Virus record (IMG/VR): IMGVR_UViG_3300017605_001304
Span: 1-64,000 of that record
Length of the DNA stretch: 64,000 nucleotides
DNA from: a virus
Strand: one strand, 5' to 3'
Shown here: in pieces, positions 3,560 to 7,148 of the stretch
How the letters are laid out: each line of letters opens with the position of its first letter
Position numbering within the stretch: position 1 is the first letter of the stretch
Notes under the pieces: model-generated
What the model was told of the DNA's origin: nothing
The model's input: only the letters and a program-made list of their open reading frames with translations
Databases searched by the model: none
Translations under genes and position numbers: made by a program

Positions 3560-3778
3560 CTAAGTGACTGGCGTTCCTGAACTTACGATCGTCATTTTCG
3601 TGTAGCCTCGAACCTCCGGGAAACACGTACTGACGAGGTTCGAGGTGGATGCCCCTCGCAGCCGCATGCCGAGTCGGCTGAGCTCCATCAGGACATCGAG
3701 CTCGATGACGATCTGGTTCTGCAGCTTGACGGGCAGGACCGCAGTCGTCGGCCAGGGCAGCGGGGAGCGAAGGCTCAT
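3560..3778 (-). CDS. mini-gene array 1, last member (group 2)
   Basis: 72 residues. Its central segment VLMELSRLGMRLRGASTSN closely matches the preceding gene (VFMELSRLGTRLRRVSTST), so the two are tandem paralogues. It then carries the tail NLVSTCFPEVR shared with two further array members and encoded by the hairpin repeat. Its ATG overlaps the stop of the upstream gene (ATGA). Function unknown. Confidence 0.7.
   Translation of the reverse strand: MSLRSPLPWPTTAVLPVKLQNQIVIELDVLMELSRLGMRLRGASTSNLVSTCFPEVRGYTKMTIVSSGTPVT
3606..3645 (-). repeat. copy B of hairpin repeat
   Basis: A perfect 11-bp inverted repeat, CCTCGAACCTC/GAGGTTCGAGG, flanks an 18-nt loop (minus strand GTCAGTACGTGTTTCCCG). 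It lies inside the 3' part of a mini-gene, where it encodes NLVSTCFPEVR. Confidence 0.8.
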
Positions 3779-3927
3779 AGGACGCCATCCAGCACGGTCG
3801 AAGTGGACACCCGTCGTAACCGAGTGCCTAAGCGGCTGAGCTCCATGAAGACGTCGAAGCGGTCGTTGAGCAACAGGCTCAGCTCGGCAGGGAGCTGCAG
3901 GCGCAGCGCGTAGCGGCAGGTCATCAT
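3775..3927 (-). CDS. mini-gene array 1 member (group 2)
   Basis: 50 residues, leucine-rich: LPAELSLLLNDRFDVFMELSRLGTRLRR. It is the nearest paralogue of the next gene downstream. The start is the first of two ATGs, overlapping the upstream stop (ATGA), and GGGTGCGGGAAG ahead of it supplies a weak ribosome site. Function unknown. Confidence 0.7.
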   Translation of the reverse strand: MMTCRYALRLQLPAELSLLLNDRFDVFMELSRLGTRLRRVSTSTVLDGVL

Positions 3928-4064
3928 CTTCCCGCACCCAGCAGGCGGAACAGGACGAGGTCGCACGGCTGCGCCGCTACGCCGGGAGAGAAGCGGCCCC
4001 AGACGCTGGAGATCAGCCGGTTGACGGCGTTGTTGAAGAGCCGCGGCGGCAAGGGAGTCATCAT
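3924..4064 (-). CDS. mini-gene array 1 member (group 1)
   Basis: 46 residues. It fits the group-1 pattern, L(I/V)xxxWxxFxPG followed by a hydrophobic strand and a terminal LLGAxR: here LISSVWGRFSPG and FRLLGAGR. Start and stop both overlap the neighbouring genes by four bases. Function unknown. Confidence 0.7.
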   Translation of the reverse strand: MMTPLPPRLFNNAVNRLISSVWGRFSPGVAAQPCDLVLFRLLGAGR

Positions 4065-4210
4065 CTTCGCGCTCCCAGCAGCTCGTCGAAGACCACGTGG
4101 ATGGACACGGACGCGAGGCCCGGCCGGAAGGCGTTCCAGATGTCGGCGATCAGCCACCGCGCATCGTCCGACAGAAGGTAGAGCAGGCGCACGTCCAGCT
4201 TGGACTTCAT
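4061..4210 (-). CDS. mini-gene array 1 member (group 1)
   Basis: 49 residues with LIADIWNAFRPG and the C-terminus DELLGARR. The same LLGARR terminus ends the first gene of the plus-strand array at 49.9 kb. The codons of LLGARR (CTGCTGGGAGCGCGAAG) hold the GGGAG ribosome site for the next gene, whose ATG overlaps this stop. Function unknown. Confidence 0.75.
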   Translation of the reverse strand: MKSKLDVRLLYLLSDDARWLIADIWNAFRPGLASVSIHVVFDELLGARR

Positions 4211-4350
4211 CGGCGGATGTCCAGCATGACAGCAAGGATCACCCCCGAGAACGTCGCCGCTTGACCCGGCGCGAAGAAGACGTTCCAGAGATGCTCGGTC
4301 AGTCGATCTAGGTCGACGGACACGAACCAGTAGTTGCCGTCCACCTTCAT
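4207..4350 (-). CDS. mini-gene array 1 member (group 1)
   Basis: 47 residues with LTEHLWNVFFAPG and the terminus MLDIRR, matching group 1. Its ribosome site AGGAGG, 10 bases before the ATG, lies inside the hairpin repeat and inside the QEV codons of the upstream gene. Coupled by ATGA overlaps on both sides. Function unknown. Confidence 0.75.
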   Translation of the reverse strand: MKVDGNYWFVSVDLDRLTEHLWNVFFAPGQAATFSGVILAVMLDIRR

Positions 4351-4538
4351 CGGTCTCGAACCTCCTGGAAACACGTACTGACGATGTTCACGAGGGACGC
4401 GGTGAGTAGCCGCATGCCGCTGTTCGTGAGCAGGCTGAGGGCACGGAGGCCGCGGTACTGATAGACCATCCACTGCAGGCGGTCAGGGAGCTCCTGCGCC
4501 GGTCGCTTCAGCAGGGCGAACTTCGGGTTGGGCTTCAT
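4347..4538 (-). CDS. mini-gene array 1 member (group 2, hairpin tail)
   Basis: 63 residues ending LVNIVSTCFQEVRDR, the hairpin-encoded tail shared with two other members. The middle (LLTNSGMRLLTAS) resembles the ELSRLGMRLRGAS segment of other group-2 proteins. The ATG overlaps the upstream stop by one base (TGATG); a GTG one codon earlier is possible. Function unknown. Confidence 0.7.
   Translation of the reverse strand: MKPNPKFALLKRPAQELPDRLQWMVYQYRGLRALSLLTNSGMRLLTASLVNIVSTCFQEVRDR
4355..4394 (-). repeat. copy C of hairpin repeat
   Basis: CTCGAACCTCCTGGAAACACG on the plus strand, with a partly decayed partner arm (GATGTTCACGAG). The loop sequence is nearly identical to copy B. On the minus strand it encodes NIVSTCFQEVR and places AGGAGG 10 bases before the next ATG. 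Confidence 0.75.
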
Positions 4539-4705
4539 CACCGTGCGTCCAGCAGGGCGCGTAGAACTGCGCGTACGGCCTGGGTCTGCTGATTGCCGTG
4601 CGTGAAGAAGTCCCAGTACGTCCCCACCAGCCGGTGGACAAGGACCGAGCCCTTCTTCAGCGGCAGCTCCGCGATGGGCTTACGCGTCGAGCGTTTGTGC
4701 GGCAC
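4538..4705 (-). CDS. mini-gene array 1 member, GTG start
   Basis: 55 residues: a basic N-terminus (PHKRSTRKP), then LVHRLVGTYWDFF and the terminus RALLDAR. The W-x-x-F step and terminal LL-x-x-R resemble group 1. GTG is the only suitable start, with GGGAG 8 bases upstream. It overlaps the 3' end of the upstream reading frame by 26 bases. Function unknown. Confidence 0.6.
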   Translation of the reverse strand: MPHKRSTRKPIAELPLKKGSVLVHRLVGTYWDFFTHGNQQTQAVRAVLRALLDAR

Positions 4706-4892
4706 GCCTCGATCTCCCGGCTCGAACCTTCTGGAAACACGAATCGATGAGGTTCGAGAGATTCCCCCGCATGTTGATTTCCCCGAGGTCCAAGCCGTAC
4801 CACGCCCACGTCACGGGGATGGCCCGGAGCTCGGGCGGCAACGGGGTGGACGGTAGCCGCATCACCGCGTGATGCTTGCGCGTGTCGGTCAC
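4680..4892 (-). CDS. mini-gene array 1 member (group 2, hairpin tail)
   Basis: 70 residues from a GTG that overlaps the upstream stop (GTGA), with GAGGTGAG just before it. The C-terminal part has NLSNLIDSCFQKVRAG, the third copy of the hairpin-encoded tail; after it the frame runs on for about 15 arginine/alanine-rich residues. Function unknown. Confidence 0.65.
   Translation of the reverse strand: MTDTRKHHAVMRLPSTPLPPELRAIPVTWAWYGLDLGEINMRGNLSNLIDSCFQKVRAGRSRRAAQTLDA
4721..4758 (-). repeat. copy D of hairpin repeat
   Basis: CTCGAACCTT and GAGGTTCGAG pair at nine of ten positions around an 18-nt loop containing CTGGAAACACGAATCGAT. It encodes NLIDSCFQKVR on the minus strand. Confidence 0.75.
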
Positions 4893-6247: not shown

Positions 6248-6393
6248 GCTTCGAAGAGCTCCTGAAACGCGTACCGGAACGAGAGCGACAGCTCGCCCGG
6301 ACGAAACGCCCACCAGAGCGCCGCGACCAGCCGGTTCACCGCGACCGGAGCTCGCGGGTCCATGTAGCCGCGCATGCTGTGGACCGGGTTCAT
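6244..6393 (-). CDS. mini-gene array 1 member (group 1)
   Basis: 49 residues with the clear group-1 core NRLVAALWWAFRPGELSLSF and the terminus QELFEA. The QELF codons (CAGGAGCTC) contain the AGGAG ribosome site for the next gene. Coupled by ATGA on both sides. Function unknown. Confidence 0.75.
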   Translation of the reverse strand: MNPVHSMRGYMDPRAPVAVNRLVAALWWAFRPGELSLSFRYAFQELFEA

Positions 6394-6560
6394 GCGAGTA
6401 GGTCGCCGTAAGCGTTCCTGTTGCTGAACCATGGCACCTCGCACTCCGACGGGAAGAGGCCGCCCGCGGACGCGCCCGCGTCGAGGTAGACGCCCCACAA
6501 GCGAGCCGAGAACAGGCGCGGCCAGCCGGTGTGCCAATCAGCTCTAACGACGCGCAGCAT
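6390..6560 (-). CDS. mini-gene array 1 member (group 3)
   Basis: 56 residues. DWHTGWPRLFSARLWGVYLDA shares the W-x-x-x-W-P-x-x-F-x-x-x-x-W-x-x-Y pattern with the two genes upstream, and it ends GDLLA. The ATG follows the upstream TAG after one base. Function unknown. Confidence 0.7.
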   Translation of the reverse strand: MLRVVRADWHTGWPRLFSARLWGVYLDAGASAGGLFPSECEVPWFSNRNAYGDLLA

Positions 6561-6561
6561 G

Positions 6562-6768
6562 CTAGATCCCCGCGAAGAGGTTGAGATTCAGCAGCCAGTA
6601 GCCCGCCGGAACCCCGTTCCGTAGCTCCCTGCGGTGCTCCTCCGAAAGGACGTCGCGGCAGGCGGTGTAGAACTCCCACCACAACCCCTCATCGAAGGGA
6701 CGGGGCCAGCCGTCGTGCCACTTCCGCTGCGCCGTGGCCAGCGGCTCCTCGTTCGAGCGGAGGCTCAT
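6562..6768 (-). CDS. mini-gene array 1 member (group 3)
   Basis: 68 residues: KWHDGWPRPFDEGLWWEFYTA, paralogous to both neighbours, with the C-terminus GYWLLNLNLFAGI. Tryptophan-rich. It starts one base after the upstream stop, with GGAG in the upstream gene's last codons. Function unknown. Confidence 0.75.
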   Translation of the reverse strand: MSLRSNEEPLATAQRKWHDGWPRPFDEGLWWEFYTACRDVLSEEHRRELRNGVPAGYWLLNLNLFAGI

Positions 6769-6769
6769 G

Positions 6770-6976
6770 TCACAGGCTCCGGAGGATCGTCTCAACGAGG
6801 CTCCAGGGGAAGTCGAGACGGTGCATCCAACTGCCCTGACGCGGCTGCTTCATGGCGTACCTAAAGTACGGGTCCCACATCTCGTCCAGGAACGGCGCTG
6901 GCCAACTGCTGAACCACGTGATCGGCAGACGCCGGCTGCGCAGGCCGCGCTTATTAGTGGAGTCCGGGAGCAGCAC
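6770..6976 (-). CDS. mini-gene array 1 member (group 3), GTG start
   Basis: 68 residues: TWFSSWPAPFLDEMWDPYFRYAM is the group-3 core and the terminus is VETILRSL. The GTG has GAGG six bases upstream and overlaps the previous gene by 23 bases. Function unknown. Confidence 0.7.
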   Translation of the reverse strand: MLLPDSTNKRGLRSRRLPITWFSSWPAPFLDEMWDPYFRYAMKQPRQGSWMHRLDFPWSLVETILRSL

Positions 6977-7148
6977 TCGGCACCTCTTCAGGCAGAGTGT
7001 TCAACCACGCGGCCGCGGTGTCGAGCTCCTCGCGCTCTTCCTTCGCGGCGAGTCGCTTGGTCGCCCACAGCGCCGACATCTCGATCGAGACGAGGCGCTG
7101 CTCTTCCTTGGCGATCAGGTCACGCAGGATCTCTTTAGGACTCTTCAT
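6954..7148 (-). CDS. small charged helical protein at the head of array 1
   Basis: 64 residues: MKSPKEILRDLIAKEEQRLVSIEMSALWATKRLAAKEEREEL, a charged helix. It is unlike the array families but coupled to them by overlap. The ATG has GGAG 8 bases upstream; the frame is open for 26 further upstream codons of implausible composition. Function unknown. Confidence 0.6.
   Translation of the reverse strand: MKSPKEILRDLIAKEEQRLVSIEMSALWATKRLAAKEEREELDTAAAWLNTLPEEVPSAAPGLH

Follow-up and report, generated by a model that had tools for sequence, protein, structure and literature searches.

Tandem arrays of coupled, duplicated mini-genes with a common C-terminal element in a T4-like phage

IMG/VR record IMGVR_UViG_3300017605_001304 (149,155 bases), of which bases 1-64,000 constitute the window analysed here, carries five arrays of very small coupled genes, the first of which (array A, 3560-7148) was the starting point of this work. 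Together, the arrays contain 96 mini-genes in 18.6 kb, or 12.5% of the record. It is near certain that these mini-genes are coding and have arisen by duplication, and their products, including those of families without detectable homology to each other, share an amphipathic-looking LxxΦΦ element at the C-terminus. The roughly 96 leucine- and tryptophan-rich proteins most probably target the host's machinery or its defences during takeover, a reading based on their number and small size, their lack of a known family, their coupling and their continual duplication.

Organization and duplication of the arrays

Array A comprises 22 minus-strand genes of 34-72 amino acids (aa), all frames being present as given in a preliminary description made from the letters alone. 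The coupling described there was also confirmed, with 18 of 21 junctions being either a 4-base overlap (15) or a 1-base gap (3) and the others longer overlaps of 23, 16 and 26 nucleotides (nt); a few of the 4-base-overlap starts can also be read as -1. All starts are ATG or GTG, with a Shine-Dalgarno (SD)-like word ahead of many. The genes, all on the minus strand, are as follows (E values from BLASTP unless stated).

g1, 6954..7148, 64 aa; first of the array by open reading frame (ORF) and coupling; lysine- and glutamate-rich, unlike the rest
g2, 6770..6976, 68 aa; group 3 (W..SWPAPF..MW..Y); to g3 E=0.001
g3, 6562..6768, 68 aa; group 3; to g4 E=1.4e-5
g4, 6390..6560, 56 aa; group 3 (BLASTP)
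g5, 6244..6393, 49 aa; group 1; to g19 E=3e-6
g6, 6098..6247, 49 aa; singleton with C-terminal ALTEVLK
g7, 5931..6101, 56 aa; 'group 4' RLxxGP by motif only, no significant pairwise match
g8, 5779..5946, 55 aa; 'group 4' by motif; ends ALRELLR
g9, 5678..5782, 34 aa; 'group 4' by motif
g10, 5529..5681, 50 aa; weak group 1 (profile A3 E=1e-7, g10 itself being in the profile)
g11, 5383..5532, 49 aa; group 2; to g14 E=1e-9
g12, 5166..5381, 71 aa; group 1 with C-terminal extension; to g20 E=6e-4; DNA repeat
g13, 5035..5169, 44 aa; group 1 (BLASTP, alignment)
g14, 4889..5038, 49 aa; group 2 (BLASTP)
g15, 4680..4892, 70 aa; group 2; to g17 E=0.004, to g22 E=0.006
g16, 4538..4705, 55 aa; group 1 by alignment, similarity weak (E=0.09)
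g17, 4347..4541, 63-64 aa; group 2; to g22 E=5e-7
g18, 4207..4350, 47 aa; group 1; to g19 E=0.009
g19, 4061..4210, 49 aa; group 1 (BLASTP); AlphaFold helical hairpin
g20, 3924..4064, 46 aa; group 1; to g19 E=6e-6
g21, 3775..3927, 49-50 aa; group 2; to g22 E=2e-7
g22, 3560..3778, 72 aa; group 2 (BLASTP); last of the array

Four paralogue groups had been proposed for array A. Groups 1 (g5, g12, g13, g16, g18-20 and, weakly, g10), 2 (g11, g14, g15, g17, g21 and g22) and 3 (g2-g4) were recovered by BLAST (best E values 1e-9 to 1e-5) and by alignment, whereas group 4 (RLxxGP) proved to be a weak motif only, with no significant pairwise similarity by BLASTP. A group 4-like [LIVY]x(1,2)GP motif near the N-terminus, defined post hoc, is found again in arrays C, D and E, giving 11 members in total versus 2.6±1.5. 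Four groups are in any case too few, as about a dozen or more small families and many singletons exist genome-wide.

The other arrays lie as follows.

Array B, 49918-51934 (in the window), plus strand: 9 coupled mini-genes by gene caller, at 49918-50118, 50115-50330, 50327-50557, 50554-50775, 50772-50996, 50993-51256, 51253-51480, 51480-51713 and 51710-51934
Array C, record 126795-127851: 5 mini-genes
Array D, record 132575-133517: 6 mini-genes
Array E, record 135844-147166: the largest, about 54 mini-genes in 11.3 kb, with short gaps and a few ordinary genes

These limits and counts (A 22, B 9, C 5, D 6, E 54) come from a simple gene caller, which missed at least one mini-gene (147166-147357, ending ...ALLRLLQGRV) and probably took in a few ordinary genes, for example the 104-aa gene at 127416-127730 in array C, which may carry a weak acyl-carrier-protein match (NCBIfam E=0.0015). 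In array B, genes 2-4 form one family and genes 6-7 another (third to fourth gene, E=6e-10; second to third, E=4e-8), and the proteins carry the same C-terminal element as those of the other arrays. Array E likewise contains tandem families (e.g. 143031-144011 and 141602-142831). Two small paralogues outside the arrays (record 72680-72916 and 73170-73412) start with (S/N)PFN and are akin to array E N-termini.

Inside the arrays, junctions of the -4 type account for 51 of 91 and those of the -1 type for 14, compared with 22 of these two types among 134 same-strand junctions elsewhere. The longest runs of coupled small ORFs contain 17, 15, 12, 9, 9 and 8 genes, whereas a shuffled genome reaches 5 and the distant relatives that were examined no more than 6. 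No promoter-like word common to the inter-array gaps was found, and a simple pattern scan returned no sigma-70-like match in the gaps ahead of the arrays.

GC-rich DNA produces many long shadow ORFs on both strands, and the mini-genes could in principle be spurious ORFs or the remains of a decayed long gene. However, GC content at codon positions 1/2/3 is 0.617/0.447/0.862 in the mini-genes of all arrays and 0.617/0.460/0.875 in long genes, and an SD match of at least 4 nt precedes 47% of mini-gene starts versus 12% of random internal positions, which indicates that they are real genes. Together with the coupling, the run lengths and the paralogy at residue level, this makes an artefact exceedingly improbable.

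In an all-against-all BLASTP comparison of the 96 mini-proteins, 126 pairs reached E<1, compared with 61-67 when the targets were shuffled; at E<=0.01, the figures were 38 and 0-2, respectively. Eighteen of these 38 pairs are immediate neighbours, where 0.8 would be expected and the maximum in 5000 permutations was 5, and 28 lie no more than four genes apart (3.1 expected), a pattern characteristic of local tandem duplication. At identical residues, third codon positions agree in 53% of cases versus 40% for unrelated codons and are thus nearly saturated, a comparison that is indicative only, the alignments having been picked by protein similarity. As the residues are kept while third positions have nearly saturated, the duplications seem to be old and the residues seem to be under selection. 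The neighbour excess, the near-saturation and DNA repeats at the junctions all support the earlier proposal of repeated tandem duplication with strong divergence. Profile-profile comparison revealed no homology between families clearly above column-shuffled controls.

The repeats (26-38 nt, some with inverted ends) occur at several 3′ ends and starts in array A. A 38-nt repeat with 10-nt inverted ends (CTCGAACCTC...GAGGTTCGAG) lies inside the g22 3′ end (3607..3644, no strand assigned) and recurs at 4355-4392 and 4721-4758, with a partial copy at 5166-5191 and an inverted partial copy at 3449-3472. The full-length copies are located in group 2 3′ ends, and in two of the three the inverted ends are perfect or near-perfect. 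On the minus strand, the 38-nt repeats contain a GGAGG-like word that the following gene could use as its SD. When three-gene blocks of array A were aligned, several pairings scored above block-shuffled controls, with z scores of up to 10 that are driven by the 3′ repeats. The extension of g12, a group 1 gene, is a repeat-coded FPEGS/REVR tail resembling that of group 2, which suggests that 3′ ends have been shuffled.

The shared C-terminal element

The leucine-rich C-termini noted previously resolved into a position-specific motif. L-x-x-Φ-Φ (Φ being L, I, F, V or M) is present in the last 14 residues of 48 of the 96 mini-proteins, compared with 11.6±3.4 in within-protein shuffles; in the same proteins, it was found 8 times in the middle and 7 times at the N-terminus. 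Singletons with no detected paralogue are also enriched (24/47 versus 6.0±2.1), so inheritance within families is not the reason for the motif, which is common to families without detectable homology. Nor is coupling the reason, since the motif is rare in the phage's other genes, whether coupled (3/54) or uncoupled (7/106). Hydrophobic residues occupy 50% of positions +3 and +4 after the leucine versus 24-35% of positions +1, +2 and +5, a spacing with the periodicity of a helix, and the element looks amphipathic.

Arginine at +1 and glutamate or aspartate at +2 are common neighbours, and their codons may double as an SD. This raises the question of whether the shared C-termini are a by-product of an embedded SD for the next gene: Glu/Arg codons at the motif, such as CGGGAG at the g8-g9 junction, can act in this way. 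Among members with no coupled gene after them, the motif occurs in only 3/13, a small sample. The rarity of the motif in other coupled genes, the ordinary usage of leucine codons at the motif and the fact that the conserved residues are Leu/Ile/Phe rather than those coded by the SD all speak against such an origin, which we regard as very improbable.

A candidate takeover or counter-defence library

We tentatively favour, at somewhat short of an even chance, the reading that the five arrays constitute a duplicating and diversifying takeover/counter-defence library, in which variable bodies are combined with a common docking tail. The shared tail speaks against full independence of the members, which probably meet a common partner. 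Each variable body would bind a particular host protein, and the common C-terminal helix would dock on one shared partner, which may be of host or phage origin and perhaps an AAA+ unfoldase or protease; the body would provide binding on which selection can act, and the tail an unchanging effector handle. With translation coupled, all members would be made together, and duplication, by adding copies, would provide variants as the targets change.

Comparison of the 96 members with Pfam, PHROGs, NCBIfam and PADLOC gave no convincing match, only borderline single ones, and no metabolic or structural family was among them. PADLOC covers defence systems and not anti-CRISPR (Acr) proteins, and is a weak test for anti-CRISPR membership. 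No Pfam match, including to a helix-turn-helix (HTH) domain, fell within the mini-genes; as for an HTH gene of the anti-CRISPR-associated (Aca) kind near array A, a weak HTH_63 match below the cut-off was found at 8611-9030, outside the array. A sequence search of the PDB with the mini-proteins and an Rfam search within array A returned nothing. AlphaFold modelled group 1 (g19) as a helical hairpin in which the C-terminus forms the second helix, with low confidence (mean predicted local distance difference test 67.6), and an array E family as three helices, a poor model (54.4).

Tryptophan makes up 3.4% of the mini-proteins versus 1.8%, and leucine is also abundant. Lysine is absent from 41/96 mini-proteins but only 3/54 other small proteins, with arginine equal; relative to the expectation from their own nucleotide composition, lysine stands at 0.77 in mini-proteins and 1.4-1.7 in other genes. 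The idea of strong lysine avoidance was rejected, the difference from other genes being real yet partly compositional. Bacteria that use pupylation reportedly often have lysine deserts (PMC10665810), and the scarcity may serve as a lead on the host, no more.

A possible partner is encoded at record 131061-132446, immediately downstream of array D and in the same orientation. Its product (PF00004 E=1e-16; phrog_10440 E=5e-107; matches to p97 chains with E about 1e-34) is a classic-type AAA+ ATPase of the p97/PAN/FtsH-like class, with its closest relative in Delftia phage PhiW-14 (41% identity); a link between this ATPase and the arrays is hypothetical. In the near-identical Stenotrophomonas phages BUCTxx99 and ANB28, the phrog_10440 gene is followed by coupled, small, unrelated genes. 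In BUCTxx99 (OR529408, 27312-30074, minus strand), 9 of the next 10 genes end in YGxW with synonymously varying codons, and the signature is conserved in ANB28. This operon is an independent case of coupled small proteins ending in one common C-terminal signature, although its proteins are larger on average and not visibly paralogous, and its tail is a strict tetrapeptide where that of the arrays is an amphipathic LxxΦΦ.

If the tail passes targets to such a machine, the arrays would form a modular mini-adaptor system of around a hundred interchangeable 35-90-residue binders, the shared machine being either a protease of the host or the p97/PAN-type AAA+ protein that the phage itself encodes; we consider this unlikely. 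Hydrophobic C-terminal tails are classic AAA+ protease signals, and with a phage AAA+ gene beside array D, the tail might instead be a degron or protease-recognition signal that makes takeover proteins short-lived. The adaptor-like protein Gp53 of phage SPO1 is itself degraded by ClpCP (PMC6873191). Unlike ssrA-type ends, however, the motif is usually followed by several more residues, often charged, and a degron seems rather improbable.

Alternatively, the proteins could be small anti-defence or host shut-off inhibitors that act independently on separate targets and share no partner, the tail being only an amphipathic helix that stabilizes them or an interface for homodimers. Comparable small-ORF islands have been described in phages (PMC7886860, PMC6873191), the families lack detectable mutual homology, and the low-confidence hairpin model of group 1 places its second helix at the C-terminus. 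Against this stand the fixed position of the element at the extreme C-terminus, even in unrelated singletons (24/47 versus 6), and its near absence from the C-termini of the phage's other small proteins, leaving independent inhibitors possible but on balance doubtful. A role as virion-internal, head-decoration or assembly proteins needed in many variants is suggested by the location of array B near tail and baseplate genes; it is quite improbable, as there is no PHROGs structural match, the genes around arrays A, C, D and E are non-structural or unknown, and array B and the tail genes are on opposite strands.

Several points weigh against the library reading. LxxΦΦ is degenerate and, by the strict pattern, missing from roughly half of the members; it might be no more than an oligomerization helix at the C-terminus. 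The AAA+ gene adjoins one of the five arrays only, and in two Schitoviridae with phrog_10440 the nearby small genes have no common tail, for which reason we rejected the idea that this ATPase is always paired with C-terminally tagged small proteins. The AlphaFold models are of low confidence, and the fold search was empty. Finally, no close relative in which to assess frame conservation and dN/dS was found in the sets searched, which is not to say that none exists in nature.

The carrier phage and comparison with known systems

PHROGs matches (E=1e-11 to 1e-78) to a T4-type portal, sheath, major head protein and head protease, together with a baseplate wedge and an SbcCD-like pair, mark the carrier as a T4-like myophage; a tube, a DNA polymerase and, weakly, a terminase were matched as well. 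Its portal has 22-30% identity to those of T4-like phages and at most 30% to that of any known phage. Among 2.9 million viral contigs and the GTDB genomes, the closest TerL relatives reach 33-36% identity over most of the protein. So far as these searches go, the carrier is an orphan lineage. No array was present at any of the 80 viral and 10 genome loci from the TerL alignment scan, where coupled runs reached 6 genes at most; a number of the larger records were covered largely or wholly, and a group 1 profile search of the TerL-relative records was empty. Array A had zero matches to 50,697 annotated phages at the DNA or protein level, and scanning viral contigs with the DUF3604 protein, polymerase, 700-aa protein, sheath and AAA protein yielded distant matches at best.

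Other genes near the arrays are listed below.

Window 1328-3424: DUF3604-matching protein of 698 aa, immediately downstream of array A
Window 9139-10302 and 10352-11233: visibly paralogous tandem pair, with a DUF6745 domain in the first (E=1e-22)
Record 128751-130172: 473-aa protein between arrays, resembling a right-handed beta-helix polysaccharide lyase (Pfam: TSP3 repeat only)
Record 133742-135844: 700-aa orphan protein between arrays

Islands of short orphan phage genes are already known (PMC7886860, PMC6873191). In crAss-like phages and at anti-CRISPR loci, short orphan genes form blocks that are suspected to be anti-defence (PMC7886860), and the arrays resemble them in consisting of short genes without homologues outside the lineage. 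The genes of those blocks are described as orphans, whereas here neighbours are paralogous and half carry a common C-terminal motif; the carrier also differs from crAss-like phages in having contractile-tail sheath and T4-type head genes instead. No Acr was identified here by the general family searches.

The host takeover module of Bacillus phage SPO1, 26 genes in a 12.4-kb terminal region, is likewise a cluster of mostly small genes, and its Gp53, an adaptor-like takeover protein acting on ClpCP, provides a precedent for an adaptor to a host AAA+ protease and thus for the AAA reading (PMC6873191). The accessible part of that paper does not describe the module as tandem paralogue families with a shared C-terminal element; the present system comprises about 96 genes of 34-100 aa in five arrays. 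Tandem paralogous mini-gene arrays in phages were not described in the literature searched, most subscription journals lying outside its coverage.

What appears to be new, being absent from that literature and from the relatives examined, is the occurrence of tandem-duplicated mini-gene families at such a scale together with a shared C-terminal element. The arrays may represent a natural source of small protein binders through duplication and divergence, and the tail a concrete handle for fishing out the targets of such islands. Islands of small phage genes are mostly regarded as collections of unrelated orphans; in this phage, tandem-duplicated families make up an eighth of the genome, suggesting duplication and divergence inside coupled arrays as one birth route for orphan small genes.

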